From Zygnema cylindricum (taxonomy: Eukaryota > Streptophyta > Zygnematophyceae > Zygnematales > Zygnemataceae), in assembly GCA_037447655.1 (NCBI GenBank), contig JBBHKE010002398.1:10064-74063 (forward strand): a DNA stretch of 64,000 bases, read 5' to 3'. The translations under genes and the position numbers were made by a program. Of the stretch, positions 2,328 through 47,051 are shown one piece after another (the first letter of the stretch is position 1; each line of letters starts with the position of its first letter). Below the pieces are notes generated by a model. The model made no database searches. It was given only the letters and a program-made list of their open reading frames with translations, and was not told where the DNA came from.

Positions 2328-3006
2328 CTCCCCTTGTTTTCTAGTCAATCTTTAATTTCAGACCACACTTCTCCCTACAGAAAATGTGCTTAGGGGCAGG
2401 CACAGGTTTGGTCATCATATCTGCTACCATCTCACTATTTGGTCAGTACTCTAAACTGATTATTTTGTTTTCTACTTTCTCTCTAACAAAGCTGAGTCTA
2501 ATGTCCATGTGTTTGGCTTTAAAATGATGTTTAGGATTGGCAGAAATAGCGATTGCTACTTGATTATCACAAAAAAAAATCTGCACACCACTCTTAAGGT
2601 GACCAAGCTCACCAAGTAAAGACTTGACCCACATCAATTCTTTTACAGCAGAGCAAGAGGCCATATACTTAGCCTCCCTGGTGGACTGAGCATTAACTTT
2701 TTGCTGTTTGCTACTCCAATAGCAAGCCCCATCACCCACATATAATACATATCCAGAAGTGCATCTCCTCATCGGAGCATCACCATAACTGGCATCACTC
2801 CAAGTAGTGATGTCAGTATTCTCCCCACCCAAATGGAACCATAGATCCCTAGTTCCTATCAAATATCTAAGGACTCTTTTAGCTGCCTCCCAATCCCTCT
2901 TAGTGAAAGCATTTAGACTTCTAATCAGCACTCCAACTGTTGCGGCTAAATCCGACCAGGTACAATTCATAAAATAGATTAGACTTCCCATTACTTGCCT
3001 GTAAAG
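2328..3006 (-). pseudogene. RT end and RNase H of Copia-1 copy 2
   Basis: The open segment 2443-3012 encodes the RT/RNase H junction (YRQVMGSLIYFMNCT) and the RNase H domain (SDASYGDAPMRRCTSGYVLY, then FCDNQVAIAISANPKHH). It lines up residue for residue with 31480-32135 of the better Copia-1. The upstream half of the same reading frame lies at 14411 onward, because a Gypsy element was inserted at this codon. Confidence 0.92.
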
Positions 3007-4526
3007 TGTCATGCCGTATCCCGTCGGCTATTTTAGTTGTTTATATTTGGGTGTTAGGACGGGCAACGGCTACACTATTTTGTATTTGGGTATTATTTGG
3101 GGTTCGCATGACCGTACGACGTGTACCGTACGACCTACATTTTCCGTGATTTCCGGGATGGCGATTTGGATCGTACCCGCGGTCCTACCGTACGACGTAT
3201 ATTTTCCGCGATTTCCGTCGACGGCGGATTTGATTATTTCTCGTCGTTCGTACGACTTACGTCGACCGGAATTCCCGCGGCCACAAACTAGACCGTACTT
3301 GCGGTCCTGCCGTACCTTATTTATTTCTCCAGGATTTCTCACCGACAACTGCCGTACTTATTTCTGTTTTTCCGGATTTCTCGCCGACGACACCTTTTCG
3401 AATTGCATCGAGACAAACAAACTTACCGTACTATATATATTTTGCGCGATTCTCGCCGACGGTAGCTTTGATCATTTCACGTCGACTGTACGACTCATAT
3501 TTTCCAGAATTCGCGCGACGACAAAGTGGACTGTATCTGCGGTCCTACAATACAAGCTTTCATTTCCTTGAATCCCGGCCGACATCAAATTTTAATCATT
3601 TCGCGTGGAGTAGCATCTCGACCGTCGACACAAAGTATGCGATTTTTGTAATATCACATCTAGACCGTCGACGCAAGTGACAAAAAAATCGACTGTCAGT
3701 TCTGACGAAGCGACGTCATTAGACTATTTTAAGTCGTGAACCATTAGAGGTTCATGCATTCACATGTAGATAGGAAGGGTTTTAATCCGTAGGTTATAGA
3801 TTCTGTAACGTAGGGCATAGGATTTCGGCCTCTTATTGGCTAAATCCAAACTAGACGCAAATACTTACATAGCACGCTGTACTCTGATTGGCATGTTTTC
3901 GCTAGGCGTAGTTTTTGTTACTTAGTTCATTTCGGATCATTTCCTGCACACAATTTTCGAGTGCAAGAATTATCCATTTTATTTATTTTCAGTATTGAGG
4001 GTTTTTCTGCAACCATCTTTTTATTTGTAAAATTGTCCGGACAGCTTAGAGGCAATTTTCTGCCTTTGCGTAAAGCGTCTAGTTTTCCATTACATTATCA
4101 ATATCTTGTAAAGCCTTACATATTAATCTATACGGCCTCGGCCAAGACCTACACAGTTTCCCTTCACTTTTCTCGTCCTTTTGAGTGGATTTCGACCGCG
4201 ATCTCACAACACAAACTTCATTTCCCGGCTATGGCTGAACTTTAATTAATGTGGAAGTTGCATGTTGGGATTAATGATTTGTTGTTTTTATTTCTTGTGA
4301 TTGTGTATTTATTTCTATTTGGCTTATGCGCATCTTTTGAGTTTGGCTATCTCAAACCTCATAAGTGTCGGGCATATTGTCATTTTCAGTTTTTTTTTTA
4401 TGTTTCTCGGTTGTTTATGCATTGATTTATTTTATTTAAATATAAATTCAGATTATCCTTGATAAGATAACTCATGCAAGGAATATAAATGGACTGTGGG
4501 GCCTAGTGGTCATCCATCGGCTTAGT
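3007..4526 (+). repeat. 5' LTR core of the methyltransferase Gypsy
   Basis: It matches 12686-14203 along its whole length. The first ~600 bases are a degenerate array of CpG-rich blocks, such as CCGTACGACGT, GCGGTCCTACCGTAC and ATTTTCCGCGATTTCC, repeated at about 90-100 base spacing. The second half is T-rich. It lacks the 192-base segment that follows the 3' copy. Confidence 0.88.
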
Positions 4527-5441
4527 ATTCCTGCACTTGAAAATTGTCTTTTTTCTTTTCTCGCTTATTTGTTTTTCTTTCAATTTCGGTTTTCTTTTTA
4601 TTCAAAGATAAAAAAATAAAAAAATATCAAAAATATATATTATAGATACATTTCTACAAATATCTATAACTAGCTTTACATTTATAATTACCATTTGCTT
4701 GTTAGTTGACGTCTTATCTTATTGGCCAATTTTCGGCCAACGATATACTACACTAACTTAAGTAATTGGTTTATGTTTTCCCCATTTTCTTTGTTATATG
4801 TCTTGAGCATCGTTTGCTCACATTAAGACATACTTCACTAAGGAGTGGAGTAAGTGGAGCAGATCCGTTCTTGGGAGCTCTGCAAAACTTTGGTTGTAGC
4901 TAACAACCGCAGTTCAACATTGGCAATCACCAGATTGCTAAGAGTGTATGTAAGTATCACGATGCCTTGCGGGTACAGGCGCGTGTTAAGGTAGTCGGTT
5001 GATCGTATAGAGGGATCGTGTTTGGAGTGGATTAGTGTTAATCCACTTGTATTGAGCATTGCATTCGTCCAGCTTTCCTTGCCTGCTATCTGGCCCTGAG
5101 TGGCCTTGGCTGAGTTTGCTTTGCCCGGAGTGGGAGTTCTTTCATAGATCTTGCCGTTGGAGGCATTGGTTAGCATTTTTGTGGATTGTGCCGCTTTAGA
5201 TCTGCACTTGGGAGTGCTTGGATAGTAAGTTATTTGCCTTTATAGATCTGGCCCTTCGGCCTTGTCCCCTTGTTTGCAGGGTAGAAGGTTTTGGTAATAC
5301 GGCTTCCTGATAGATCTGGCCATCGAGGCCCTGTTAGGGATTGATTGGCTGATTGGACAAAAGAGTGGTGTGGCCTGGCATTTGAAGCATATCGGATAGA
5401 TCGGTTTTGTTATCTGGTCATCATTTGGTGTTATCATTTTT
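4527..5441 (+). other. Untranslated leader of the methyltransferase Gypsy
   Basis: About 0.9 kb between the LTR core and the gag start. No convincing ORF is present and no standard primer-binding site (TGGTATCAGAGC type) could be found. Copy decay or an unusual primer could explain its absence. Confidence 0.5.
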
Positions 5442-7382
5442 ATGCCCACCAATTGGGATAATCTTGATTATCCTGTCGGAACCACTCGATCGTCGGCCTC
5501 GTTTAGGCCCACGGAATCCGGACCATCAGATTTCTCTAGTCTTTTGGACCATCCTTCCCTAAATATCTCGGGTCAAATTTCCCCTTCGGTTCGATCCACT
5601 CTCACCTCAGTATCTTCCTTATCATCAGTCTCTTCCACATTTTTCGAAGAGGAATCTGACCGCGATTCCCTTGACGGGTCGGATTCCGATTCATTATCTT
5701 TTTGGTTTCCGCAAATTTCCAAGCTTGTTTTATCTCCAAGCATTCCATTATTGGAAATGGCTTCCACATCCGAGGGGGGGGGCCGCCTTCATTTCTGTTT
5801 TTCAGGAATGAAGGATACCATGACGTTATCGCATTTTCGAATGCTATTCGATACCGAAATGCGTGATCTTGCATTTCGGTACCAAGATCGGTTCGACCTA
5901 CGGGTCGCTTTCTCTCTCTTAGGTCGTTACCTTCGAGGTTCAGCCCTTACTCTTTATTCTCGCAAGTATGATTCCGTACTTGCGATGACAGAGTTCTCTC
6001 CGTCTTTTGCTGGGAGTCCTGCTATTATAGGACAACCAGAAATTCCATACCAACCGGCTATCCCGGAAGTCCTTGATCTCAATGGCGATGTTATTACAGC
6101 AGCAGTTGCGGAAATACCGCAACAGTTTGCTATAGCCGCACGTGCTGGAATTCCAGCACGACCAGCGATGACGATCCCTATATTGGATCCGCTCTCTGTC
6201 ATGTTTGAAATGTTGCAAGCGGAATACCGTATGCAAAACCATGACCAAGTTCGCGAGTTAATAACTTCGAACGGAAGTCAAGAGAGACCGCCCCTGCCAT
6301 GCGTGCTCGTATGGAAGCTCTTCGTGAAGCATTGCCGGACTTAATTTCGGATGCTGAAGCTGTCCAAAAATTTGTAGGACAGTTTCCGAGTCAGTCTAAG
6401 AAATTTATCCAGAGTCACCTGACTCAAACATATGGCTTGAAGTTCACTTTCGACCAAGCCGCCCAGCATGCCGTGGAATACGAAATGCAAAATTGTTGGT
6501 GGGAAGCCCATGACCGACCTAAAGCGGTCTCGAAAGAACCGATTGTTCCACCATGGAACAATCCTCGTCTTAACAACTGGCCTCCTAAAGTCCCGGCCAT
6601 GGGAACGCGACCTAGTTCTCCCGGAAACCGATTATGTTTCCGATGTGGGAAGACCGAGCATGATGCCCTAATGTGTCCAGACAAAACTGCTTCCTGCCCT
6701 AATGTGTCCACATTGCAAGCAAACCGGACATTATGTCCATCGTTGTCATATAAAAAACCCACAATATTACTATCAGAACGAAATTAAGAGTGGTGGCATT
6801 CCAGCTCGATCCGCAAGCGTGGTTCAACAGGTTAAAGAACCGGAAAAAGACACCACTCCACCTAAGGTATCTCGAAGAGATAGAGAGCGTTTAGAAATGC
6901 AAGAGCAAATGGCGGCTATGATGAAAGAACAATTCGCAGCTTTCATGACCCAAATGAAGCCACAATTTACAAGCATGGCTCGCACTGTTGTACACATGCC
7001 CACGTTGGCAGGTCGAATCTTACGAGATTCCACCATCCAACAACGAGAGGCTACGTTCGATAAAGGTTCGACCGATCACAGTCGTGACGGTAAAACACCT
7101 AACACGCGTATTCCTTTGTCATTCACTAAAGAACCTTCTTCTCTCTTGCCCGAAACCGCTTCAGCCATCGCGGCTGAAGCTCTCAACATAGTGGATCGAA
7201 CTATACATGAGGCACACCGCGTGAAAGAACGCTTGTGCATTCTATCCGCTATGATTTGTGACTCACCAAAAATCTCCCCTATCTCCTTACCCTCTGATAG
7301 CTCAGCTGCAGCTGCCGCGTTACAAGCACTTCAGCTGCACAAAAATCTTGCTGCTATTCAGCCTATTTCCATAGAGGAGTGA
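5442..7382 (+). pseudogene. gag of the methyltransferase Gypsy
   Basis: Gag forms the particle and binds RNA. The frame starts at 5442 (MPTNWDNLDYPVG) with a Ser-rich acidic N-terminus, followed by a retrotransposon Gag-like helical region. It shifts frame near 6299 and again near 6700. The two CCHC zinc knuckles straddle the second shift: CFRCGKTEHDALMC (near 6638) and CPHCKQTGHYVHRC (near 6703). The last segment (to 7382) has a Met/Gln-rich helix and ends in TGA before the protease. The whole would be about 640 residues. An Ala/Pro/Ile repeat (PAIPEV, AGIPARPA) at 6000-6180 is unusual for a Gag. Confidence 0.85.
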
Positions 7383-7430
7383 AAGTCTCTCGATCCTCAC
7401 ATCAGTTTTTTAAATAATGCGAAGGGTGCA

Positions 7431-7740
7431 TTGTTGATCAATGGTATAGCCCCTTCCCTGCCTCTCATGGATACGGGTGCAAAGCCGGTGATATTGGGCT
7501 CTAGCTTTGCACTGAAGCTTGGTCTAACTCCGGACAAGCTTCAGTCCACTTCTAGTTGCTTGTTAACATCAGCGGGTACAACCAAACTTGTCCTAGGAAT
7601 CACTAAGGAACCGCTTGTTTTCAGGTTCCAGAACGAAACAGCCACAGACTTGTTGAAATCTCGGTTCACGCTCTAGTCACTAAATGTAGTGACTATGAAT
7701 GCCTAGTGGGACAGGACGTTATATTTCGTGTACGGTGTGG
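7431..7740 (+). pseudogene. Retropepsin of the methyltransferase Gypsy
   Basis: An aspartic protease that cuts the Gag-Pol polyprotein. The active-site loop is PLMDTGAKPVILGSSFALKLGL, with catalytic Asp in DTGA. After a frameshift near 7676, the end of the fold continues as ECLVGQDVIF, the position of the LLGMDF-type motif in Gypsy proteases. It follows gag by 48 bases and leads straight into the methyltransferase region. Confidence 0.82.
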
Positions 7741-9100
7741 TGTTGACATGCATGATCAGACATCTTCTTATAGGCCCACTAGCTTCCCGAAACGCAAAAT
7801 CTGCATTCCGCTAATTTCTGCTAGGAAGCCCATGCCTATTATGGCAAATTCGGCCAGTTCCATACTTGCATTTTTAAGGAATTCAGTGGGGGCCGAAATA
7901 TTTCATTCATTGTCAGCAGAAGAAATTTTGCCCGATAGTTCTTTATTACCAAAAATTTTCAGTGATCCAGGTTTTCTTATAGATACGAGGGAATTTGACC
8001 AAATCTATAACCAAACCTTGTCAATTCCACTTTCTCCGGTCTCTCCCCCAATCCCAATCCCTACAGACTCTTTTGGGTTTCTTCCCATTGATTGGAATCC
8101 GGTCCAATTGAAACCTCATCGAAATGGATTAGTGATTTTGGACCTTTTCGCTGGAATAGGCACTTCTCTCCTTCCATGTTTGCGGGACGGATTATTAATC
8201 CGATTTTATTATTCGGTGGAGATTGATCCGTTAGCACGGAAAGCACAATTACATCATTGTAATCTGTCGCATTCCCAATACCCGCATTTGTTACCAAAAT
8301 CTGCATACGACCCTCCCACAAGACATTCGGATTGTGGGCAACCATCACTTACTGGAGATTGGTCCAATCGATCTTGTTTTTGGCGGATGGGAGTGCCAGG
8401 GAATGTCTCGTGCCGGGAAAGGTCTCGGATTAGCCGATCCCCGCACCAAATTATTTTATGAGTTGGTTCGCATCCTGCATTTTCTACAAACTTTAGATCA
8501 TCCTATGGGCTATATCTTGGAAAATGTCGCAGCCTACAATGATCCAAGACCTACAATTTTGGCTGATTATCAACGAATTGAACAATTAATTGGTCCGCCT
8601 CTTATTATTGACGCGGCTCGCCATGGTTCACTAGCACACCGGGTTCGCTCCAAATGGATGAACCTGATCGATATTGGTAGACTCCGTGAGGCCAACTTGT
8701 TAGTTCGTCCTCCTCATTCATACATTCAGGCTGCCCTTCTTCCTTTTCATAAGGTGCAGCCTTGCATTCAAAAGGACTGTCCCCCTAATTTCAGTGTCAA
8801 TGTCACGGGTCAACCTCTCAAGGTGCTTCCTACCTTAGTTTCTTACCCACATTCACATGCATTTTCTAATGATGGTCCTTGCATGCTCCGAAACATTCAT
8901 ACCGGTGAGCTCGAAGAGCCTACCTCTACGGAACGAGAACACCTAATGCATTTCATTCCCAGCACTACTGCCGCTCCTGGTCTTACTGAACGTCAAAGAT
9001 GCACTTTATTAGGTCGTGTCATGGACCCTCAGTCTTTGTCTTTTGTTTTAGGTCTTGGGTTTGCAGCTGGTCGCCACTCTCAGGCACATCCGTCTCAACC
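7706..9100 (+). pseudogene. Cytosine-5 DNA methyltransferase domain inside the Gypsy pol
   Basis: It would transfer a methyl group from S-adenosylmethionine to C5 of cytosine in DNA. Motif I is VILDLFAGIGTSLLPCL (8130-8180), with an acidic SAM contact in YSVEIDPLARKA. A frameshift near 8310 leads to PQDIRIVG and DLVFGG. Motif IV is GGWECQGMSRAGKG, with the catalytic Cys at 8394-8396. Motif VI is GYILENVAAY (near 8510). A motif VIII region reads HGSLAHRVRSKW (near 8625), and motif X-like sequence is RCTLLGRVMDPQSLSFVLG (near 8995). Order and spacing fit a complete DNMT catalytic domain. Glu replaces the usual Pro before the catalytic Cys. It lies between protease and RT. Confidence 0.92.
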
Positions 9101-9117
9101 AGCTGGGGGGGGGAATG
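9098..9117 (+). promoter_or_regulatory. Candidate central polypurine tract
   Basis: AGCTGGGGGGGGGAAT lies between the methyltransferase and RT regions. The identical 16-mer occurs at 12479-12494 just before the 3' repeats, where a polypurine tract is expected. A duplicated tract inside pol would prime a second plus-strand start, as central tracts do in some retroviruses and Ty1. Confidence 0.5.
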
Positions 9118-9479
9118 CATCACTAAGAAAATCTTTCCGTCCCACTCTCCAAGGGACCACATTTCAATTTTTCCTCTTTCCTTCTCCAATTCCACCAGTT
9201 CCGGAAATCTCTGTCTACGATTTCCTCAATCCTAGCCATATGTCCTGGTCTATTCCCGCATATACGGCTGTCCAGTCTACAAGTCCCATGCATATTCCAC
9301 CCACTCCTCATTGGAGTGCTGCTTTTCCAACACGCAGTTGGAATCATTCGGTTAATTGCCTTAAACAGACACCTGTAGCTTACGAGTTAGGTCAAACGCT
9401 TATCGCAGATGAGCAGTTGGCCTTTGCACAAGCCATGGAAGCTATGACGACCGAAAATCCTGATGCTCCTAAATGGAAA

Positions 9480-10429
9480 TTCGGCACAAATCTAACAAAG
9501 GCCGAACAAGAGTTACTGAATGACGTAGTTTTACGAAATATCGATGCCTTTGCCTTTTCTATGAATGATTTGGGTCGTCACACTGCTTATAAAATGTCGA
9601 TAGATCTCGAAGATGATCGCCCTATATTTAAACCGAAACATCGTTTGTCAGAAACTGAATGGGAAATGGTAGACAAGCGATGTGCTGAACTAGAGGAAGC
9701 TGGCCTAATCTATCGGTCAGACTCCACATTTGCAGCTCCCACTGTCATGCCTCGGAAAAAAGATTCCGAGGGAAATTTTACTGAACGTCGAATGTGTGGT
9801 GACTATCGTGAACTAAATGCTAGAACAGTTCAAGATCGTCATCCCATGCCTCTTGCCGAAGAAATATTTGATCATGTAGGCGGAGCAAATTATTTTAGTA
9901 TCCTTGACCTCCGTCAAGGATTCAATCAAATCGAGATAGAGGAAAAAGACCGGCATAAAACTGCCTTTTGGGGTAGCGACAACCGATGGGAATGGGCCGT
10001 AATGCCATTCGGACTGAAAAATGCTCCGGCAGTATTTCAAAAAGTCATAGACTCCGTTCTTGGAGGCTGTGAGTTTCTAGATGTTACATCGATGACCTTA
10101 TCATTGCCTCGGCTACTATCGAAGAGCACGCTGCTCACATCGAATGGGTATTGACTGAATTGAAAAAGGTCGGATTAAAATGTCATCCAACGAAATACAC
10201 CTTTGGAGCCCTGGGAGTGCCTTACCTCGGCCATTTTATCTTGGCTGAGGGGATCACTCCTCTCGAAGCAAAGGTAGAGGCAATCAATAAATTGCCTGCT
10301 CCCACGGACCTCACCAGTCTGCGAGCCTTTCTCGGACTTGCTAATTATTATCGCAGGTTCGTACTCAATTTCAGCACAATCGCATCTCCTCTAAACGATC
10401 TTCTCAAGAAGGAAGTGGCGTTTATATAG
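9480..10429 (+). pseudogene. Reverse transcriptase of the methyltransferase Gypsy
   Basis: Copies the element RNA into DNA. Visible blocks are AELEEAGLIYRSDSTFAAP, MCGDYRELNARTVQDRHPMP, FSILDLRQGFNQIEIEEKD and WAVMPFGLKNAPAVFQ. The catalytic box YIDDLIIAS is at 10085-10111. The main ORF (to 10154) loses frame just before this box near 10077; the continuation (10077-10427) has HPTKYTFG, YLGHFI and LRAFLGLANYYRRFV, and stops at TAG 10427. These are textbook Ty3/Gypsy RT motifs in order. Confidence 0.93.
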
Positions 10430-10900
10430 GGTCCCGATCAGATTTCCGCATTTCAAAAAATAAAAACCGCCTTATTGAGTGCTCCAATTCTCCGTCCTCC
10501 CAATCACAAACTTCCTTTTTGTATCCAAACAGATTTGGAAAACCCGGAATCGCTGCCATCTTGACACAAAGAGAGTTGAGCGGAGAGGAATACGTAGTTG
10601 CTTACGCGAGTAGAAGCAATAACCGGGCTGAATCAAATTATATTAGCTACGAAAGAGAGTGTCTAGCCGCGGTTTGGGGTGTCGTTCACTTCCGCCATTA
10701 TTTGTACGGAAACCTTTCACACTCTTAACTGACCATCAGCCCTTACATTGGCTGATGACGAACGATAAGCTTTCCGGGAAGTTAGCCCGATGGGCTTTAA
10801 TCTTACAAGAATATGACGTTGAAATAATTCAACGACCAGGTCTGCTTAGTCTAAACGCAGACGGAATTTCCCGAAATCCTTTGCCCCGAACAACAGATAA
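10430..10900 (+). pseudogene. RNase H of the methyltransferase Gypsy
   Basis: Degrades RNA in RNA:DNA hybrids. Blocks are CIQTD (near 10520), GIAAILTQ, VVAYASRS, ESNYISYERECLAAVWG and, after another frameshift near 10700, TLLTDHQPLHWLM and RWALILQEYDVEIIQRPG. The order matches Gypsy RNase H. At least two single-base shifts (about 10530 and 10700) split it over three frames. Confidence 0.88.
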
Positions 10901-12349
10901 CGGAGTTCGACAGGATTTCGATGACGTTGATGTTCCCGTCATATCAATAGGTACTTATCTTACTTACTGCCTGGCTTCTATTCCGAACCCCCGTCTCGCC
11001 ACAGATCCTTGGCGTGATGGGCCTCTCATTCTTTTCCTATCCTCCCAGACCTTCTGGTCCGGCACGACCACTGATGAAGAAGACAGAGTGAAAAAGAGGG
11101 CCAAAGGTTACCTTTGGCTCGGGGGATCTTTAGTTCGGTTGTTGGCAGACGGAAGCCATAGGCACGTTCCACGGCCTACCAAGCATCTTTCTCTCATTGA
11201 GCAGATTCACACCAAGCTTGGTCACTACGGTACCAAGCGAACGTTAAGTCTAGTTCAGGCACGATATTGGTGGTCAAGAATGCAAGCTGATCTTGCTGCT
11301 ATTGTGCACAAGTGTGCCACCTGTGACCGTCTCCGAACTTCTTTTTCTAACCAGCAGACTACGCTCCAACCTCTACCTATCAGGGGTTTGTTCTATCGAT
11401 GGTCAGTCGATTTAGCCGGACCTTTTCCTATCTCACGTAGGGGGAAACAATACATCATGATTATGATTGAAAATTTCAGTAAGTGGGTAGAAGTTGTAGC
11501 TCTGCCTCAGAAGACAGCTAAGTTAACCACCGCAGCTTTTAAGGAACATGTCCTTATGAGATACGGTGCCCCAGCCGAGGTCCTTACGGATCAAGGTACA
11601 GAATTTCGGGGAGAATTCAAGAGATGCTTGATGAGGCTCTCATCGATCATCGTCGTACTAGCCGGGATCACCCCCCAGGCCGATGTCCTAGCTGAACGGG
11701 CAGTCCAGACATTTAAGCGTGCTTGCGTAAGCATTGCTTAGAAAAACACATTTCAGTTTGGGACGAGTCCCTCGGTAACATTACCATGGGATATCGCATG
11801 TCGGTGCAAGCTAGTCTGGCTAATTTCATCCCGTATTATGTTTTATTTGGGCGACAACCGTTGCTCGGTCGCAATATTCAGAAGGCCGCAAGCTTCCAAC
11901 TTCCGCTGATGTTTGACACTATTTTTTTGGAAGAACTCACTCGTCGTGCTTTGCTTTTTGCCCGTGAAATGCCCATGGCTTTTGATAACCTGCAGATTGT
12001 CCAACATCGGGACACACTTCGGTTTGCCACCACTCGCAGCGGAAATTACAGGCCGCAACAAAAGCCCTATCGGGTGGGAGATTATGTTTATCTTCGCAGG
12101 CAATCTTTTGACACTTTGGACACGGATGTTTCTGCACACATCTTACGGATTATCGAGGTGGATCCGAACGGGATGTTAGGATTACAAGGAGCAGACACGG
12201 ATTTTTCGAGAGCACTCCAAGAATTGTTCTCCATGTTACTTACCAGATTTGTCGCAGGATATGGATCCTATGCGGATGCCGATTACGGAGGCGACGGCAT
12301 GTACCTTTTGTCATCGATCGGACGGGGAAACTACCATGTTACTTTGTGA
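10900..12349 (+). pseudogene. Integrase of the methyltransferase Gypsy
   Basis: Inserts the DNA copy into the genome. The zinc-binding HHCC module is HTKLGHYGTKR to CATCDR (11206-11325). The catalytic core has WSVDLAGPF (first Asp, near 11400), VLTDQGTEF (second Asp, near 11580) and ADVLAERAVQTFK (Glu, near 11690). A frameshift lies between 11620 and 11720. The C-terminal part (11723-12240) has RHCLEKH-like sequence, the conserved PYYVLFGRQPLL and a GDYVYLRRQ beta segment. A final shift near 12245 leads into the PHD finger. Confidence 0.92.
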
Positions 12350-12476
12350 TCACTGGAATCAGGGGTTTCACATGGAGTGTTTGGTGCCACCTTTATTGGC
12401 AGTTCCGGACGATCAGTGGTTTTACCACGGATGTAGCGAGCTACCGGTCGTGTTGGCCAGCTCCTCTGCCGGCTAA
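12249..12476 (+). pseudogene. C-terminal PHD finger of the methyltransferase Gypsy polyprotein
   Basis: The segment has the spacing of a C4HC3 PHD finger, a module that usually reads the histone H3 tail. It shows CTFCHRSDGE, MLLCD, NQGFHMECLVPPL and DDQWFYHGC. Most ligands are present: Cys1, Cys2, Cys3, His5, Cys6 and Cys8. Cys4 is Trp (CDHW) and Cys7 is Tyr (FYHGC), each one base from Cys, so this copy is damaged. It directly follows the integrase, where chromoviruses carry a chromodomain, suggesting a role in choosing chromatin for integration. Sure of the fold by pattern; the role is inferred. Confidence 0.85.
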
Positions 12477-12478
12477 AG

Positions 12479-12494
12479 AGCTGGGGGGGGGAAT
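12479..12494 (+). promoter_or_regulatory. Polypurine tract before the 3' repeats
   Basis: AGCTGGGGGGGGGAAT follows the stop of the last ORF and abuts the 192-base segment A (12492-12683). It would prime plus-strand DNA synthesis and would place the LTR start at segment A, not at the TGTCATG core. Confidence 0.6.
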
Positions 12495-12683
12495 AAACCG
12501 ACCTAACCATAACCAGCTAAGTCGTTGACCTTTCTTTTTCTTCCACCTAGCCAGTTGTTGTATTTACCCATTTTTACTTTTATGATTTATTTCATTTCCG
12601 ATATCTCGCTATCATTTGAGTTTAAGTTGAGCATAGCTGATGATATTGCATGCATCTTCATGTTATTTGACACATGCACGACA
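12492..12683 (+). repeat. 192-base segment A, repeated at 14204-14395
   Basis: It starts AATAAACCGACCTAACC and ends GCACGACA. The second copy is exactly as long and about 95% identical. The copies flank the 3' LTR core, while the 5' LTR core (3007-4526) has no copy on either side. Confidence 0.9.
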
Positions 12684-12685
12684 GC

Positions 12686-14203
12686 TGTCATGCCCCATCT
12701 CGTCAGCTATTTAGTTGTTTATATTTGGGTGTTAGGACGGGCAACCACTATACTAATTTGTATTTGGGTATTATTTGGGTTTCGCAGGACCGTACGACGT
12801 GTACCGTACGACCTACATTTTCCGAGATTTCCGAGATGGCCATTTGGATCGTACCCGCGGTCCTACCGTACGACGTATATTTTCCGCGATTTCCGCTGAC
12901 GGCGGATTTGATTATTTCGCATCGTTCGTACGACTTTCCTCGACTGGAATTCCCGCGGCCACAAATTGGACCGTACTTGCGGTCCTGCCGTACCTTATTT
13001 ATTTCTCCAGGATTTTTCAACGACAACTGCCGTACTTATTTATGTTTTCCGGATTTCTCGCCGACGACACCTTTTCGAATTGCATCGAGACAAACAAACT
13101 TACCGTACTATATATATTTCGCGCGATTCTCGCCAACGGTAGCTTTGATCATTTCACGTCGACCGTACGACTCATATTTTCCAGAATTCGCGCGACGACA
13201 AAGTGGACCGTATCTGCGGTCCTGCCGTACAAGCTTTCATTTCCTTGAATCCCGGCCGACATCAAATTTTAATCATTTCGCGTGGAGTAGCATCTCGACC
13301 GTCGACACAAAGTATGCGATTTTTGTAATATGACATCTGGACCGTCGACGCAAGTGACAGACAAATCGACTGTCAGTTCTGACGAAGCGACGTCATTGGA
13401 CTATTTTAAGTCGTGAACCATTTGGAGGTTCACGCATTCACATGTAGGTAGGAAGGATTTTAATCCGTAGGTTATAGATTTTGTAACGTAGGGCATAGGA
13501 TTTCGGCTTCCTATTGGCTGAATCCAAACTAGACGCAAAGATTGACATAGCACGCTGTACTCTGATTGGCTTGTTTTCGCTAGGCGTAGTTTTTGTTACT
13601 TAGTTCATTTCTTATCATTTCCTGCACACAATTTTCAAGTGCAGGAATTATTCATTTGATTTTTTTTCAGTATTGAGGATTCTCTGCAGCCATCTTTTTA
13701 TTTGTAAAATTGTCCGGACAGCTTAGAGGCGATTTTTTGCCTTTGCGTGAAGCGTCTAGTTTTCTATTACATTATCAATATCTTGTAAAGCCTTACAAAT
13801 TAATCTATACGGCTTCGGCGAAGACCTACACGGTTTCCCTTCACTTTTCTCATCTTTTTGAGTGGATTTCGACCGCGATCTCACAACACAAACTTCTTTT
13901 CCCGATTGTGGCTGAACTTTAATTAGTGTGGAAGTTGCATTTTGGGGTTATTGTTGTGTTGTTTTTATTTATTGTGATTGTGTATTTATTTCTATTTGGC
14001 TTTTGAGCATCTTTTGAGTTTGGTTATCTCAAACCTCATAAGTTTCGAGCATATTGTCATTTTCAGTTTTTATTTATCTTTCTCGGTTGTTTATGCTTTG
14101 ATTTATTCTATTTAAGTATAAATTCAGATTATCCTTGATAAGATAACTCTTGCAAGGAATATAAATAGACCGTGGGGCCTAGTGGTCATCCATCGGCGTA
14201 GTA
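12686..14203 (+). repeat. 3' LTR core of the methyltransferase Gypsy
   Basis: Homologous to 3007-4526 with scattered substitutions. It starts TGTCATGCC. The two bases before it (GC) separate it from segment A, so the join reads GCACGACAGCTGTCATGC, a near-perfect palindrome. Confidence 0.9.
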
Positions 14204-14395
14204 AATAAACCGACCTAACCATAACCAGCTAAGTCGTTGACCTTTCTTTTTCTTCCACCTTGCCTGTTGTTGTATTGACCCATTTTTACTTTTATGATTT
14301 ATTTCATTTCCGATATCTTGCTATCATTTGAATTTAAGTTGAGCACAGCTGATGATATTGCATGCATCTTCATGTTATTTGACACATGCACGACA
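14204..14395 (+). repeat. Second copy of segment A, forming the element's right end
   Basis: It joins the LTR core at 14203 without spacer and ends GCACGACA directly against the interrupted Copia RT gene (AAGGAATAGTC). See the finding on circular permutation. Confidence 0.88.
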
Positions 14396-14399
14396 AAGG

Positions 14400-18072: not shown

Positions 18073-19130
18073 TGAAACTCTGAGACCTCCATAAGTCCTC
18101 AGAGTGGACAGCTTCCTAGAAGCCTCTAGGATAACCCTGACCCCTTTGTGTTTCAGCAAAAACAACTGCCACCTTGGCAAACAATAACTCTGACCACCTT
18201 CACCCCTGTAAAGGCAAGACTCCCTTGAGTCGATAGCAAAACACAAATCTCTGAATTTGCTCCATTGAGCAGTAAGTTATGGAGGGTCAAAGTTGACCTT
18301 TTGTACAGAAGCTCTGTGGGAGAGAGGGTCCTATCTCCTAATTTTTTCAAGTCCTATCTCTCTCACTGACTCTATCTACTGATGTACGGAGCCAATCAGA
18401 TTACAGTTCCGTACACAAAAGTACAGCTATCGGTGTACTTTTTGTACGGACATTGTACGACATGGCCTAAATGTCGACACGTGGTATGTCCGCATTCGCT
18501 CCCTTAATCCTTGGAGATGCCGCGATCCAATGTCATTCCGCCACGTGTCATTTGATGTGGCGATGACCAAAAACCACCGAAATCCTCTTCTGCGATCTCG
18601 GCGTTAATTCTGGCCGTCCGATTAAATTCACATTTAATCTTAGCCGTAATAAATACATGCGCGGTATTCGTTTCATTAAAGAAATAAATTCGCGGTATTC
18701 GTTTCTTATCCGTACCGTAATCCGTACTTTTACATTACTGGATCTATGTATCCCGTAAACAGTTACAGTCAAATGAATTATCCTACCTGATAATGTTTAA
18801 TTAAATATCAAACCATATAGTACGTAACACTACTTAAAGACTTAACGGCTAAGGCTACCTGCCACTGGCTATTTGCCGTCCGGTAGGTACCACGATCAAA
18901 CCCTGTGGTCGGCACATACCTTTTTAGTAAATAAACCCCTAATTAATATATATTTCTCGTAAACCTCTGGATAGCCTGGGTAGGCATGGCTTTAGCTCCC
19001 TCTCCAATTTTTCAGTGACTGCGACAAGTTTGAGAGTTGGAGAGAGAAGTTAGAGGTAGACTGCCTCGGCTTCTTTCTATATTTCTATTTAGACCTAGAA
19101 AATAATTTAAATGGACCATTAATTTATACA
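18073..19130 (-). repeat. 5' LTR of Copia-1 copy 2
   Basis: 1058 bases, homologous to 1274-2327. It is flanked by TSD TGGAG at 19131-19135, after which the interrupted Copia B LTR continues. Confidence 0.93.
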
Positions 19131-21400: not shown

Positions 21401-23388
21401 TTACCCGGCGGTAGTGGGGTAGATTAACGTCGATGAGGAAAAATCGAATCAGGATCGTGAAACGGCCTGAGGAGTGAAACATGGAACACATTGTGAATCT
21501 GCCATTATTTTGGAATATCAAGTTTATAAGCCACTTCATTTACTTTGGAAAGGATTGTGAATGGTCGAGTGAACCTTGGCGCTAATTTCCTTGAAAGTGC
21601 ACCTGGTAACGACATGTTTGCCATGTTAAGGCGAACCCTATCACCCTCATTATAGGCGATGTCTTTCCAATTAGCGTCGGCTTGCGACTTTTGGCGATCC
21701 TTAGCTTGTAGAAGGGCCTTCGCCGCCTTTTCCAAATTCACTTGCAGCGTCTGCTCAAATTCCATAGCGGCCGGTGTAGGGCATTCGCTGACCAATAAGT
21801 TTTGGGGAAGGGTAGGTTGTCGCCAATTGAGAGAGAAAGGCGTAGCGTTAGTCGACGAGTGCATAACACTGTTGTATACTACCTCAATCACCGTCAACTA
21901 GTTCACCCAGTCTTGTTGGTGCACTGACACGTAAGCCCTTAACACTCCTCCAAAGTTATGTTCACTCTTTCGGTCTGACAGTCGGTCTGAGGGTGGTACG
22001 GTGTGGACGTGGCAAGCTGCGTTCCACATTACTCGAAAACAGATTTCTCCAAAAGTGACTGACAAATTTTCTATCGCGATCACTTACGATATTTTTCGGA
22101 AGTTCGTGATGACGGAAAATCTCTCGAAAGAATAAGTTTGCCACATCACGAGCTGTAGTTATGGTTGTCGTACAAAGGAAATGGGGCATTTTTGTAAGGT
22201 AATCCACAACGACGAATATAGAGTCATTGCCTTCTGCAGTTATTGGAAGTGCAACGATAAAGTCCATTGAAATCGCTTCTCAGGGGACTGACGGTATCCG
22301 AAGAGGTTGTAAAAGTCATTGACTACCCGATTCCGATTTGTTTATATTACAAGAGTCACACGTCCTAGCATACTCTGTGATTTCTCGAGTCATGTTTGGC
22401 CAGAAGTACGCCTCAGCGACACGCGTCGTTGTTTTATCTCGTCCGAAATGTCCACTGAGAGGATCGTCATGACTCATTTTAAATATTGTGTGACTATTTC
22501 TTGGTCTGTCGGAACATAAAGTCGAGGTGTCTCACTCGATTTGTACCGCCACATACCGTTGGCGATTCGAATCAAAATCTTCCTTTTGACCAGTTCCTTG
22601 ATTGTATCATCGTCGTCGTATGCGGCCTTAATCATATTTAGCCACTGCTCATCCACTTGCACCATAATCGTCACTGCGCTGACTTTCTGATCCTGCGTTT
22701 TGTCCGCTACTACGGTGTTCTTTCTTCCAGCATCCTCACTTCGCTCCTGTGATGATTGCGTTGTTTGCTTTGTCATTGGCGCAACGACACCAGGCCTCTT
22801 TGACAAAGCATCTGTCGGGTTTGTCTTGCCCGATTTGTATTCGATAGTTAACTCTGGTCCGAAGGTCTGAAAAAATGTCATCCACCTGACTTGTTTCTTC
22901 GATAATTTGGGTTGCGTTTGGGGATACTTTAACGCGTGGTGATCTGTGATTACAGTGATCCACTTTCCTTGAACGTAGCATTTCTAGACTTCTAAAACAT
23001 TAATGATAGCAATCGTCTTTTTTTCATGCGTGGCCCAATTGAGTTCCGCTGCCTTTAACATCCGACTATCATAGGCAATAGGTTGTAGGCCTTTTCCATG
23101 ATCTTGCATAAGAATTGCTCCAATACCCGTATCACTGGCGTCAGTAATATCGTCCGGGGTAATTTGAGGGCGAGAACAACTAACACAGGGTCGTGACCAA
23201 CTGCTCCTTTAGCGTGTCAAAGGCTGCCGTTTGCGTCGTTTTCCACTCATAGGGCACATCATTTTTGAGTAAATCCGTGAGAGCAGTAGCAATTTTTGTG
23301 AAACCTTCAACAAATCGGCGATAGTAGGAGCATAATCCAAGAAAGCTTTGCAACTCCATAACGTTAGTCGGTTGCGGCCACTCCTTGA
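21400..23388 (-). pseudogene. RNase H and integrase of the chromovirus
   Basis: From high to low coordinates: KEWPQPTNVMELQSFLGLCS and YYRRFVEGFTKIATALTDLL (RT end, 23388-23180), FFQTFGPELTIEYKSGKTNP (RNase H end, 22881), then MDFIVALPITAEGNDSIFVV (first catalytic Asp) and IVSDRDRKFVSHFW (second Asp, 22267-22000). Last is NSVMHSSTNATPFSLNW with the C-terminal GDRVRLN and LAPRFTRPFTI blocks (21897-21505). Multiple stops and shifts are present, including one before the HVSLLRPF-type end near 21480. Confidence 0.9.
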
Positions 23389-24810
23389 TGAAACTCTGAG
23401 ATCTCCATAAGTCCTCAGAGTGGACAGCTTCCAAGAAGCCTCTAGGATAACCCTGACCCCTTTGAGTTTCAGCAAGAACAACTACCACCCTGGCAGACAA
23501 AAACTCTGACCAACTTCACCCCTGTGAAGGCAAGACTCCCCTGAGTCGATAGCAAAAAGAATCTCTGAATTTGCTCCCGTGAGCAGTAAGTTATGGAGGG
23601 TCAAAGTTGACCTTTTGTACAGAAGCTCTCTGGGAGAGAGGGTCCTATCTCCTAGTTTTTCTAAGTCCTATCTCTCTCACAGACTCTATCTACTAATGTA
23701 CAGAGCTAATCAGATTACAGTTCCGTACACAAAAGTACAGCTGTCGGTGTACTTTCTGTACGAACATTGTACGATATGACCTAAATGTCGACACGTGGTA
23801 TATCCGGATTTGCTCGCTTAATTCTCGGAGATGCCGCGATCCAATGTCATTCCGCCACGTGTCATCCGATGTGGCGATGATCAAAAACCGTCGAAATTCT
23901 CTTCCGCGATCTCGTCGTTTAATTTCGGCCGTCCGATTAAATTCACATTTAATCGTAGCCGTAATAAATACATGCGCGGTATTCGTTTCGGTAAATAAAT
24001 AAATGCGCGATATTCGTTCCTTATCCGTACAGTAATCCGTACTTTTACATTACTGGATCTATGTCTCCTATAAAACTATTTCAGTAAAATGAACTATCCT
24101 ACTTATAAATGTTTAATTAATTATTAAACCCAATACTACGCAACACTATCTCTAGAGTTAACGGTTAGAGCTACCGGCTACCGGCTAAATTTTGGCCGGC
24201 AGGTTGCAAGTTAAAATCGTGGAGGGGGCACATATATTTTAGTACATATATCCTTTAATTATAAATATACTAATATTTATATCCCGTAAACCTTTGGATA
24301 GCCTACGTAGCCATGGCTCTAGCTTCCTCTCCAATTTCTCAGTGACTGCGACAAGTTTGAGAGTTGGAGAGAGAAAGTTAGAGGTAGAGTGCCTCGGCTT
24401 CTTTCTATATTTCTATTCAGACCTACAAAATACTTAAAAAGACCATTAATTTCTACACTCCCTTTATTTTCTAGTCAATCTTTAATTTTAGACCACACTT
24501 CTCCCTGCAGAAAATTAGCTTAGGGGGAGGCACAGGTTTGGTCATCATATCTGCTACCATCTCACTATCTGGTCGGTACTCCAAACTGATTATTTTGTTT
24601 TCTACTTTCCTTATAACAAAGCTGAGTCTAATGTCCATGTGTTTGGCTTTAAAATGATGTTTAAGATTGGCAAAAATAGCGATTACTGCTTGATTATCAC
24701 AAAATATTTTCTGCACACCACTCTTAAGGTGACCAAGCTCACCAAGCAAAGACTTGACCCACATCAATTCTTTTACAGCAGAGCAAGAGGCCATATACTC
24801 AGCCTCCATG
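23389..24810 (-). mobile_element. Copia-1 remnant: 3' end of RNase H plus LTR
   Basis: LTR 23389-24457, polypurine tract 24458-24472 and RNase H codons up to 24810 lie on the minus strand inside the chromovirus RT. The left edge is a normal LTR end. The right edge is a deletion joint, because the chromovirus has lost about 95 RT codons including its catalytic box, and Copia has lost everything 5' of RNase H. Confidence 0.87.
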
Positions 24811-24893
24811 GTCGTCGGTGCGTTGGTCAATCCAAACGGCATAACCAGAAATTGAAAATGACCGTACCAGGTCCGGAATGCAGTATTTTCCAC
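24471..24893 (-). pseudogene. In-frame fusion of Gypsy RT with Copia RNase H
   Basis: One open frame begins with the Gypsy RT block [19 protein letters not shown] and LTNAPT, then passes without a stop into the Copia block [20 protein letters not shown] and its RNase H end. The joint is at about 24810. It is a deletion product of two unrelated element classes, not a functional gene. Confidence 0.85.
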
Positions 24894-25680
24894 GTCTTCC
24901 TCGGCAATTTTAATCTAGTGGTAACCACTTCGCAAGTTTATCTTCGAAAAATACTTGGCTTCTCTTAACCGATCTAACAATTCATCTATCTTTGGTGGAG
25001 GGTACGCATTTTTAACTGTTAACTTGTTTAGCGCTCGGTAGTCCACACACATATGTAAACCTCCATCTTTGTTATTCACGAAGAGGACGAGGGCTCCACA
25101 CGGTGACTTGCTCGGTTCGATTGCTCCGACTTCGACCAACTCCGCAAGTTGCTTTTTGAGTTCGTCTAATTCGATGTAACTCATTTTATACATCCGATTA
25201 GCCGAAGGTATCGCTCCGGGGACAAGTTCTATCATATGGTCTACGTCGCGTTTTGGAGGTAAACCTTTCAAGAGCTTCGGGGGGAAGACATCAACATACT
25301 CCTCGTGAAGCTTTCTTATGACTTCCGGGGCCTCTACGGAAGTCTTTTCTGGAAGCCACCACTTTTTGAGTCGAAGTCGGGATTTTTTTTACTCCATTCC
25401 TCCAGAATCCCCTCCTTCGTTTTTTCAACGGGTTGGATGACCACCATACCAATTGTCTCCCCTTTTTTGAGTGCCCTCTTTAACTGTAAGGCTGAAAGCA
25501 GGCGTCCCTCTTCCAATCCCTTACCAGCCGCTCCCACATTTACCTCAAACTCTTTTTCGCCTTTTCTCACTTTCATGCTACCGTTTTTCCAATCGATTGT
25601 AGCGTTCCACTTTCACAGCCACGACTTCCCCAAGATTACTTCATGGTCCCCAAGAGGTATTACATGAAGTGTGTCATAAC
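24894..25680 (-). pseudogene. Protease end and RT start of the chromovirus
   Basis: The segment 25271-24915 encodes [60 protein letters not shown] and [11 protein letters not shown], the fingers and palm start of Gypsy RT. The stretch 25576-25300 (minus) carries the linker between protease and RT in broken frames. Confidence 0.88.
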
Positions 25681-25762
25681 ATAGGAATTTCCCCATTCGG
25701 ACACGTAACCTCGGAGTGCGATGAGTAATTGAGAGGGAACTCCCGTCGGCCAATTGAACCGT

Positions 25763-26741
25763 CTAATTATCCGAAATAGTAATGAGGGGAAGTTTCAACT
25801 TTTTCACCGTCTTCTTGTTGATAAAATTCCCCGACGCGCCTGAATCCACCATGAAGCTAGCTGCGCTCGTACCAATTTGACCTTGAAAAACCAAAGGGTC
25901 ACCACCTTCACCAGCTAACCTCGTGACTGTGAGCTTGCCCTTCTTAGGAACTTTCCTTTTTGGGCAATCCTTGGCAATATGGTCTGAGGAACCGCACTGG
26001 AAGCACAATTCATTTTGTCTTCCCCGTTGGAGCTCCTCGGGGGACGAGCCATTGGCCTTGGCCTTAACGGTTTTCTTCTTCTTCCGAATTCCATTGACCG
26101 CGTCTTTGTCACCATTTACCGCTCCGAGCTCCATAGGAGTAGGACCATCATCCCTTCGACCTCCCCCGTTGCTGCTCGATCCAAAATAATAGGATCTACA
26201 AAGGGTGAAGTCTTCCGAATCGGTCCATTCCGCAAACTGAATAATTACCGAGAGGCTAGGAGTCACAGTTTCCCGCGCGAGCCACTGTTCCACATCCCTC
26301 CGAATGGATCCCTTGAGCCCCTTCACATAACGATCCACGGCTTCATCTTCTGTTATCGTAGGTATTTGAACCTTGCCCACCAAGAACCGTTGCGTGTACT
26401 CCATAACCGAAGTACGTTGCTTTAGAATCGATATTTTATCCCTTACAGCCTTGATCGTATTCACGGGTTGCCACGAGTCGCGGAGGAGTTGAACAAAATT
26501 GGACCACTCAGCAGGTATCTCATCGCTTTCTACCAGTGTTCTCCACCATACTTTTGCTGTTCTTTTAAGCAAACCGCCAGCGTAGTGAACCTTTTCACAA
26601 TCTGACATGCTGAGGAAATTTTTGAGATAATTCGCCATGGAAAATAACCACGCATCAAGATTCTTGTGACAGGCCGGGTCAAACTCGTCGGGAAGTCTAA
26701 GCTTGGGTCTCCTCAAGTCTCTCTCTGTGCCTCCATGAGTT
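25763..26741 (-). pseudogene. gag-protease of the chromovirus
   Basis: A 317-residue open stretch. The Gag core is LDAWLFSMANYLKNFLSMSD, KVWWRTLVESDEIPAEWSNF and VMEYTQRFLVGKVQIP. A CCHC knuckle CFQCGSSDHIAKDC follows a basic Lys-rich region. The retropepsin motif is ASFMVDSGASGNFI near the end. The N-terminus of the same gag lies beyond the inserted Copia-1, at 33199-33327, with at least two frameshifts between. This order matches plant chromovirus Gag-PR. Confidence 0.92.
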
Positions 26742-26746
26742 CTTTC

Positions 26747-27796
26747 TGTAGAAACTAATGGTTTTATTAGTATTTTCTAGGTCTGAAAAGAAATATAGAA
26801 GTCGAGGCAGTCTATCTCTAACTTCTCTCTCCAACTCTCAAACTTGTCGCAGTCACTGAGAAATTGGAGAGGAAGCTAGAGCCATGGCTACCTTGGCTAT
26901 CCTGAGGTTTACGGGAATTTTATATTAGGGTTTATATATTTAATTAAAATGTATGTGCCGGCGGCAGGATTTGATCCTTGTACCTGCCGGCCGGCAGACA
27001 CAATATAGCCGGTAGCCTTAGACGTTTCATCTAGCGGTAGTGTTACTTAGCATATAGTTTGATAATTATTTATATATGTATACAAGCGATAAACTATTTA
27101 ACTAGAATTAATTACGGGATACATAGATCCAGTAATATGTAAATGTACGACTTACGGTACGGACATAAATCAGTACCGCGCATTTGTTTCGTAAATGAAA
27201 CAAATACCGCGCATGTATTTATTACGGCTACGATTAAAGCCGAATTTAATCGGACGGCCGGGATTAGCGCCGAGATCGCGGAGGAAGATTTCGGCGGTTT
27301 GTGGCCATCGCCACATCGGATGACGCGTGGCAAAATTCCGTTGGATTGTGGAAACTCCGGAGATTATGGCACCGAATCCGGATTTGACATGTGTCGACAT
27401 TTTGGCCATGTCGTACAATATCCGTACATAAAGTACACCGGCAGCTGTACTTTTGCGTACGGAACTCAATTCTGATTGGTTCCGTACATCAGTAGATAGA
27501 GTCTGTGAGTGAGATAGGACTTAGAAAAATTAGAAGATAGGACCCTCTCTCCCAGAGAGCTTCTGTACAAAAGGTCAACTTTGACCCTCCATAACTTACT
27601 GCTCAGGGGAGCAAATTCAGAGATTCTTTTTGCTATCGACTCAGGGGAGTCTTGTCTTCACAGGGGTGAAGTTGGTCAGAGTTTTTGTCTGCCAGGGTGG
27701 CAGTTATTTTTGCTTAAACACAAAGGGGTCAGGATTATCCTAGAGGCTTCTTGGAAGCTGTCCACTCTGAGGACTTATGGAGGTCTCAGAGTTTCA
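26747..27796 (+). repeat. 5' LTR of Copia-1
   Basis: Starts TGTAGAAACTAATGG and ends GAGTTTCA. It includes an antisense tRNA-like module (26955-27030). TSD CTTTC precedes it. Confidence 0.96.
26955..27030 (-). promoter_or_regulatory. Antisense tRNA-like module in the Copia-1 LTR
   Basis: On the minus strand: GTCTAAGGCTACCGGC, a GC-rich hairpin (GCCGGCCGGC), then AGGATCAAATCCTG. The 3' LTR holds the same module at 32357-32432. It shows B-box-like sequence with three mismatches to GGTTCGANTCC. Confidence 0.35.
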
Positions 27797-44586: not shown

Positions 44587-44793
44587 TTAAACATGGAATA
44601 GCGTCATTTATCCATAGATCAAAGTGAAACCAACGGTTTCGGCAACTGTGTACGAAGTGGATGCTGGACGGGAAAAACAGTTCTGTATTTTGTGCAGTGT
44701 TAACTGTGCGATCGTGTTTATGTTCTATGAATCCATTACTCCCTCCGTCCCTAGCCTGCAGCGAAGGCGCACATCTCCTTCCGTACACCTTCG

Positions 44794-45309
44794 TTGAATC
44801 CTATACCATCAGGCGTTTCCTCAAACCCTAATCCTTTGTCAGCCGTCAAGACGACAAAGATGGGCCCAGGAGCAGACGATGTCGACGCTTCTCACCGTCG
44901 ACACGTGGAACATCCAGAGAGAGGGAGGCCTGCTACGCGTCATCGAGAAGATCATGGTTACAGAGGGAGAGAGAGGCCTCATGAGGAAGATGACCACGGA
45001 GAGAAAGATGACGGTCGTTTTTTTGAAGGAGAGAGTTCTCGCTTTCGCTCGAAAGGAATGCAGGAGGACGAGAAGGATAGAGAGGAGCCACGTGTTAGGG
45101 AGAGATGGGGTGGTACAGAGGGCAGGGGTAGGGATGGGAGACAGCAGTGGGGAAGGGGGGATCGCGGCTCAGATGCTGACGTCATCCCTGAGCTTTATTC
45201 CATCCATAAGGCAACTGTACGGAGCGTTCGTCCTTTTGGCATTTTTGTGCAAATGGAAGGTTTTAGGAAACACGCTCTCATTCATTTGTCGCATGTGAGC
45301 GAGTATGAG
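44794..45309 (+). CDS. Exon 1 of the S1/zinc-knuckle gene
   Basis: 172 codons. The first ~130 are Arg/Glu/Gly/Asp-rich. The S1 domain starts at PELYSIHKATVRSVRPFGIF. The donor is GAG|GTAAGT. A downstream in-frame ATG at 44860 (MGPGADDVD) is an equally good start. Confidence 0.88.
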
Positions 45310-47020
45310 GTAAGTTAACCAGATCGTTCAACAGAGTTCTGTCGCTTTGCAGTTTTTAGGGTTTTTGTCCGTGAAGAAAAATGAATTTGGTCAATGAATC
45401 TTTCACTCAATCCTTTTTTATTGAATCTTTTACTGAATAGTTTTCTGAATCGTTTAATGAATCTATTACTCTTAACCTTTTACTGACCTTGTACTGAATT
45501 GCTTGCTGAATCTTTTGCTGAACCTTTTATCGAATCTTGTACTTATTCTTCTCCAGGTGATAACGAATCTACCAGAATACAAGGAACCCTGACCTTTTTT
45601 CTGAACAGTTACTGACCTTTTGCTGTTTTTTTTTAAGAATCTTATACCAAATATTTTGTCGAAACTCTTGCAGGTGACAAAGCGTGACGACCCGGATGAC
45701 TCCAAAGTGAAAGCTCTGCAAGGTGTGGCTGGTGAAGGGGACTCCGTGTGGGTGAAGGTGGTCTCTGTGAAGGAGGAGGAGCCCGGGAATGCGAAGATTG
45801 GAGCATCCATGAAGTTGGTAAACCAGAGAGACGGCACCGACAAGGACCCTCAAAATACTCTGTTGGGGGAACAGATGTCAAAGCCTCGCTGGCAGGAGCC
45901 TAAGAAGGTGAGCTATTGCTTTACGATGTAGACATTGGCACACACCTCTCTTTCTCCCCCCCCCCCTCCCCCTCTCTCATTCTGTTGCTTCATCTTTCAT
46001 CCACTCCATCTCTCTCTCTCCCCCCCTCTCTTTCTCATTCCGTTGCTTCATCTTTCTCCACTCTCCCACCCTCCCTCTCACATTCTGTTGCTTTATCTTT
46101 CATGCACTTCCCTTCCCTCTCTCCCCCCCTCTCTCTCTCATTCCGTTGCTTCATCTTTCATCCACTCCCTCTTGCTATCTTCCTTCTTTTCTTCTCCCAC
46201 CCGCCCTTCATCCAATTTCTCCGTCTCCCATGTACACAGTTTTTTTTGTTATATGCGCGCTGTCATACATATGAAAAATCTGATTTTTACGACGAGGAGA
46301 CAACAATCGAATAAGTTGAGGTTTCTATTGCTGTTCTGTTTTGTCCATTTTATTGCAGATGGAGTTGGGAGCCGTCTACAATGTCACATGCACTCGCTGT
46401 GGCGGCCATGGCCACTTGAAGACAGAATGTTACGCTTCTCTCAACAACAAAACATATGAATTGCTTCCTGACGTGGACACTACGGAGACTGAACGACAGG
46501 CTGAAGGAGATGTTTCAGGAAATGTAAGTACAGGAAATAGGAGAGAGACCACCGGAGTAAGTAGAGGGTCAGGAGTTGCATCAAGAGATACTGAAAATGG
46601 GGCTGGAAGGGGATTAGGGTTAGCGCCTGGAACGGGTTTACCAGTTGGGAGAGGGAGGGGAAGAGCTATGACTCAACCGGCTTGGATGACCCATGGAGTT
46701 GGAATAGCGGGAGAACCAAAGCAGATCGGGAAAGGTGGAAGTGATTCTATAAAGAGTAAAGAAGTGAAGGGAACAAAGGTAAGAACAGACGATATGGAAA
46801 ACCTACCTTCGAAAATTTCGTCGAAAGAGGATGCATTAGCTGTAATTGCAAAACTGGAACAGGAGTTGAAATCCAAGAAATCTCGCAAGGAGGAGAAAAA
46901 GAAAAAGAAGGAAAAAAGGAAAGAGAGGAAGGAGAAACGGAAAGAACGGCGCAAAAAGGAAGGGAGAGAGAAGAAAAAGGACAGGAAAAGAAGAAGAGAT
47001 GATGATGAAAGTGATGACTC

Positions 47021-47051
<31 letters not shown>

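Follow-up and report, generated by a model that had tools for sequence, protein, structure and literature searches.

A decayed Gypsy retrotransposon of Zygnema cylindricum with a DNMT3-like methyltransferase, a PHD finger and split direct repeats

Chromoviruses are Ty3/Gypsy retrotransposons with a chromodomain on the integrase, and the PAT/ngaro-type DIRS elements have split direct repeats that imply a circular intermediate. DNMT3 enzymes combine methylation with the reading of unmethylated lysine 4 of histone H3 (H3K4me0) through their own ADD domain. Here we describe a retrotransposon of the alga Zygnema cylindricum, found in a 64,000-nt stretch of contig JBBHKE010002398.1 (the window; positions are counted from its first letter). 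The element is like chromoviruses in its chromatin-reader module at the integrase C-terminus, and unlike them in having a PHD finger in place of the chromodomain, an extra methyltransferase (MTase) and split repeats. It shares with the PAT/ngaro-type elements the split direct repeats and the implied circle, whereas its DDE integrase, 4-bp target duplication and TG...CA ends set it apart from them. The catalytic domain of the MTase resembles that of DNMT3A/B, and the pairing with an H3K4me0 reader would be analogous.

Retrotransposons that have captured DNA methyltransferases (DNMTs) have been published from two lineages (De Mendoza et al., PMC5890265). By its description there, KnitGypsy-Dnmt3 of Klebsormidium nitens shares with the Zygnema element the Gypsy domains, a Dnmt3-type MTase in Pol and the repeat order A-coding-B-A-B; the PHD finger of the Zygnema element is a difference, as the main text of that paper has no mention of a PHD, although figure 4c might show one. 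SymbioDIRS-Dnmt3 and SymbioLINE-Dnmt of Symbiodinium likewise join a retrotransposon to a DNMT, and SymbioDIRS-Dnmt3 also has split repeats and a shuffled domain order; their tyrosine recombinase or LINE endonuclease contrasts with the DDE integrase found here (PMC5890265). Among titles and abstract openings on Gypsy PHD fingers, split repeats and DNMT retrotransposons, with few subscription papers covered, PMC5890265 alone concerned DNMT retrotransposons.

We interpret the Zygnema element as a defunct copy from among the streptophyte-type Gypsy retrotransposons, belonging to a green-lineage family that has a DNMT3-like MTase in Pol, often has a PHD finger after the integrase, and would integrate by a circle route as a premethylated copy (probability about 0.55). 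The family is little described and is found in green algae. Self-BLAST and a comparison of its flanks to a sibling Copia place the element at 3007-14395 on the plus strand, with ends TGTC...GACA. Its coding part was read in six frames against Pfam-A and has the order gag, aspartyl protease, cytosine-5 (C5) MTase, reverse transcriptase (RT), RNase H, integrase and PHD finger. The gag region (5442-7382) lies in three frame pieces with two CCHC knuckles (6635-6676 and 6705-6746); its frames gave no Pfam gag match and a lone, sub-threshold knuckle match (0.16). The protease (7383-7730, DTGA at 7470) has an internal frame change and a Pfam match of 2.2e-4, its 22.3 bits slightly below the cut-off of 24.3. 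The MTase (8129-9050) is followed by the RT (9780-10240, YIDD at 10085; RVT_1 2.1e-14 and 1.2e-8), which has an internal frame change, and by RNase H (10345-10815), which also contains frame changes, with RT_RNaseH matching the last part (2.3e-9) and the first part recognised by motif only. The integrase (11181-12190), with one frame change, comprises an H2C2 zinc finger (Integrase_H2C2 1.7e-14), a DDE core (rve 1.7e-10) and a C-terminal region, and the PHD finger (12297-12434) was recognised by Pfam (1.3e-7) and alignments. The 11 frame pieces are separated at nine points by a frame change and at one by an in-frame stop, and therefore the copy is dead and encodes no single polyprotein.

The first-pass annotation had read one Gag-to-PHD polyprotein at 5442-12476. 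Its domain order holds and the single polyprotein does not, and that interval is the coding part only. Its proposals that a Gypsy element had captured a MTase, and that a PHD finger lies where chromoviruses carry their chromodomain, agree with the Pfam matches within Pol and after the integrase. In the ten pieces scanned there was no chromodomain at the integrase C-terminus, where Pfam shows the PHD instead, no phage-integrase domain of the tyrosine recombinases that mark DIRS/PAT elements (rve/DDE is present), and no ADD or PWWP domain upstream of the MTase; in this last respect, and in having its reader on the integrase, the element is unlike DNMT3A/B. Family profiles run over all six frames of the whole window found one MTase, in two pieces, and one PHD finger.

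The repeats are arranged as A1, coding region, B1, GC, A2, B2 (self-BLAST). A1 (3007-4527), which has no adjoining B, is 93.5% identical to A2 (12686-14203), differing at 94 of 1517 positions, and B1 (12492-12683) is 96.9% identical to B2 (14204-14395), differing at 6 of 192; B2 abuts A2 with no spare base. Immediately upstream of B1 lies a G9 tract (12483-12491) that resembles a polypurine tract and would act as one. The B1/A2 junction (12680-12689) is a perfect palindrome, GACA-GC-TGTC (GACAGCTGTC), the sole such palindrome in the window. Within repeat A, a 130-bp stretch is itself repeated, at about 75-77% similarity. A-coding region-B-A-B is the repeat order of DIRS elements, and a figure legend states a DIRS-like layout for KnitGypsy-Dnmt3 (De Mendoza et al., PMC5890265). 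The first-pass annotation had overlooked the split repeats, the decay of the PHD finger and this K. nitens precedent.

The element inserted into an older minus-strand Copia with probable terminal repeats at 1274-2327 and 18073-19130. It is flanked by AAAG (3003-3006) and AAGG (14396-14399), a 4-bp target duplication with one later substitution, since the empty site in the sibling Copia at 27.8-31.7 kb reads AAGG. The element has the Metaviridae order of protease, RT, RNase H and then integrase in Pol, together with DDE integration, a short target duplication and TG...CA ends; in place of the identical long terminal repeats (LTRs) that directly flank the coding part in that family, it has A-coding-B-A-B.

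The MTase matches the Pfam C5 DNA methylase family (5.5e-10). Motifs I, IV, VI, VIII, IX and X lie at 8141, 8382, 8511, 8634, 8913 and 8988; the order proposed in the first pass was correct, but a frame change places motif I in a different frame from IV-X, and the proline of motif IV is replaced by glutamate (WECQ). The catalytic domain is nearest to DNMT3 and retains the cysteine, ENV and RxR residues. Matches to DNMT2 were far weaker (0.059 at best), and the NCBIfam dcm model matched three of six proteins, all below its cut-off. The catalytic cysteine is retained in 79 of 81 diverse relatives, and glutamate instead of the usual proline precedes it in 55 of the 82 with a residue there. In a tree of hand-picked family rows, built without P0004, P0050 and host algal DNMT3s, 19 element MTases are united in a single clade that excludes DNMT3A and the phage and bacterial sequences (100/100), and DNMT3A groups with the element family (only 90/84). 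Descent of the MTase from a phage enzyme was rejected on this tree, where six of seven phage enzymes fall outside the group of DNMT3A and the family, and the remaining one with bacteria; these seven were taken from 20 listed among 212 phage records that match the window MTase fragment. Viral contigs scanned with the MTase fragment, the PHD fragment and an integrase-PHD alignment yielded no relative, and the family MTase alignment gave 36 viral loci matching over part of the enzyme. In bacterial and archaeal contigs the window fragment found nothing and the family alignment 17 loci, ten of which gave outgroup rows.

In the window PHD finger six of the eight C4HC3 zinc ligands are kept, ligand 4 being changed from cysteine to tryptophan and ligand 7 from cysteine to tyrosine, whereas all eight are present in 28 of 30 relatives and the remaining two are incomplete. 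The linker between integrase and PHD is colinear with those of the three relatives compared, all chlorophyte-type. The best solved PHD matches by sequence include PHF12, Lid, KDM5A, WSTF, DPF3 and KAT6B. A tryptophan two residues before the histidine is the mark of H3K4me3 readers. It occurs in none of the 30 readable PHD fingers (31 in all, window included), and therefore we infer that the family PHD is an H3K4me0-type reader.

The relatives are 90 distinct proteins from protein searches, all retrieved through the MTase, with named sources Closterium, Chlamydomonas eustigma, Cymbomonas and Chrzof1, the last taken to be Chromochloris. Profile scans place the MTase after the RT in 35, none of them from Closterium, and before it in 23, namely 22 Closterium proteins and P0004. 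An integrase core is present in 44 relatives, and 30 of these also have a PHD finger, in 29 cases after the core; P0050, on a very divergent branch, has it between MTase and integrase. The window groups with 18 Closterium rows in the RT tree (96/91; six redundant rows and pieces below 90 residues left out) and with two in the integrase tree (95/91), and the MTase tree agrees (94/86), so that the three trees concur on common descent with the Closterium elements. The first MTase tree, of 81 of 92 rows (at least 225 residues) plus DNMT3A, suffered from the joining of long branches, P0050 pairing with DNMT3A, and played no part in DNMT3 placement. In a reduced tree, also without the long-branch P0004 and P0050 and 18 rows judged redundant, one branch divides the pre-RT from the post-RNase H rows (89, not starred); P0001 and P0046, with no RT in their open reading frames, were labelled pre-RT in this tree by an upstream protease remnant or Gag knuckle. 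Most simply, the PHD would be ancestral in the family with repeated losses, whereas the MTase would have either moved once or been captured repeatedly. As a side observation, the PHD is followed in P0010, P0013, P0038 and P0042 (4 of 11 tails of at least 150 residues) by an additional C-terminal domain that has a DPWAGTGTI-like motif and is absent from the window; that of P0010 bears a weak resemblance to D12 adenine methyltransferases (0.018, below cut-off) and that of P0038 has no match. Two kinds of methyltransferase may be present in some elements.

We propose a hypothetical model for the life cycle of such elements. Reverse transcription from the G9 tract and a putative primer site after A1 would yield cDNA with B-A terminal repeats, which the MTase, packaged alongside the RT, would methylate. 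Joining of the cDNA ends would give a two-LTR circle, with A2|B2 as the joint. The DDE integrase would then cut GACA-GC-TGTC in one repeat, leaving CA-OH ends; a circle opened at one internal B|A palindrome would give exactly A-coding-B-A-B with CA ends. Finally, the PHD finger, which lacks the tryptophan of H3K4me3 readers, would dock the integrase on nucleosomes with unmethylated H3K4, and the premethylated copy would enter silent chromatin. De novo CG methylation has been reported for the SymbioDIRS DNMT, and cDNA methylation proposed (PMC5890265); methylation of cDNA by the MTase of the present family would be the counterpart. The scheme in full, with a DNMT3 MTase, an H3K4me0 PHD on the integrase, DIRS-like integration of a premethylated two-LTR circle and delivery of a silencing mark to silent chromatin, we regard as doubtful.

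Several observations weigh against the reading that we favor. The first-pass annotation had suggested that the element would choose its site by histone state and then methylate its own or target DNA, and the repeats do not bear out self-methylation: C-to-T differences between A1 and A2 show no excess at CG (15/208.5, 7.2%) over CHH (27/352, 7.7%), and the CpG-rich repeat A (observed-to-expected ratio 1.5, with 0.61-0.67 in Copia and 0.93 in the window) disfavors long-term self-methylation. C-to-T differences at CHG are somewhat raised alike in the element A repeats (13.0%) and the Copia repeats (19.7%). The window MTase has the glutamate in motif IV, and the asparagine of motif VI is replaced by histidine in 12 of the 27 enzymes from Closterium. 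Immediately downstream of A1 we recognised no TGG-type primer site, the circle model draws on a single copy and one figure legend, and H3K4 reading was assigned by residue analogy. A PHD finger is absent from 14 of the 44 relatives with an integrase core, several of them cut short; at least four (P0020, P0022, P0039 and P0051) continue for more than 600 residues once the core begins and still have none. The four Closterium proteins with a core also have none, P0066 stopping early, so that P0060, P0061 and P0080 are informative. The exact combination of the window, a pre-RT MTase with a PHD, occurs in none of the 90 relatives, a count limited by the four of 23 MTase-then-RT relatives that reach an integrase core.

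That last count is what would be expected if the present copy were a one-off chimera, which we consider highly improbable: RT, integrase and MTase all point to a streptophyte-type origin, and chlorophyte-type relatives have a PHD linker colinear with that of the window. The first pass had made other copies the test of such a chimera, and the 90 relatives, which largely answer it, reveal a family with MTase and PHD, if not this exact combination. It is quite possible, at somewhat less than even odds, that the MTase was captured several times, with a place before the RT in the streptophyte capture, a place after RNase H in the chlorophyte one, and perhaps further captures. The two MTase orders split in the MTase tree, the window and Closterium stand apart from the rest in the RT and integrase trees, and separate capture is favored for P0004 and P0050, with their very divergent MTases, because their RTs fall beside that of a second Gypsy in the window, one that lacks an MTase (97/86). 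Against this stands the single clade of 19 element MTases, within the sampling of that tree.

The MTase and PHD could also be useless passengers of an ordinary Gypsy element, whose split repeats arose by rearrangement of normal A+B LTRs. The copy is decayed throughout and has lost two PHD ligands, A2+B2 alone resembles a normal TG...CA LTR, and several relatives are without a PHD. The retention of the catalytic cysteine and of the PHD ligands among relatives, and the identical repeat layout stated for K. nitens (PMC5890265), make this unlikely. Less likely still is that the MTase acts on RNA, either genomic RNA or the tRNA primer, rather than cDNA. The prevalence of the motif IV glutamate would suit such a substrate, and a LINE DNMT failed to methylate yeast DNA, for which an RNA target was raised (PMC5890265); the DNMT3 placement, the far weaker DNMT2 matches and the CG methylation by the DIRS-element Dnmt3 (PMC5890265) argue for DNA.

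Elsewhere in the window, the second Gypsy (22319-26776, minus strand) consists of gag/Ty3-type capsid, CCHC, protease, RT and H2C2 pieces and has no MTase or PHD profile match. Probable host gene pieces at 44755-48345 show sub-threshold matches to the start of an S1 domain and to a CCHC knuckle, and then a charged Arg/Glu-rich tail. In a large satellite array at 51255-54900 many frames read as MAAISLHGSHIV-type repeats. An Rfam scan gave no match at the gathering threshold.

The class of DNMT-capturing retrotransposons is extended here to chlorophyte-type and Closterium elements, many with a chromatin reader on the integrase, and for specialists the interest lies in the PHD finger and circle-like repeats in a DNMT-Gypsy of this kind. 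The split repeats and the 4-bp duplication suggest a circle route for a DDE-integrase retrotransposon, which would be an exception to the rule of integration by ends. Why an element carries its own silencing enzyme thereby becomes a testable question.
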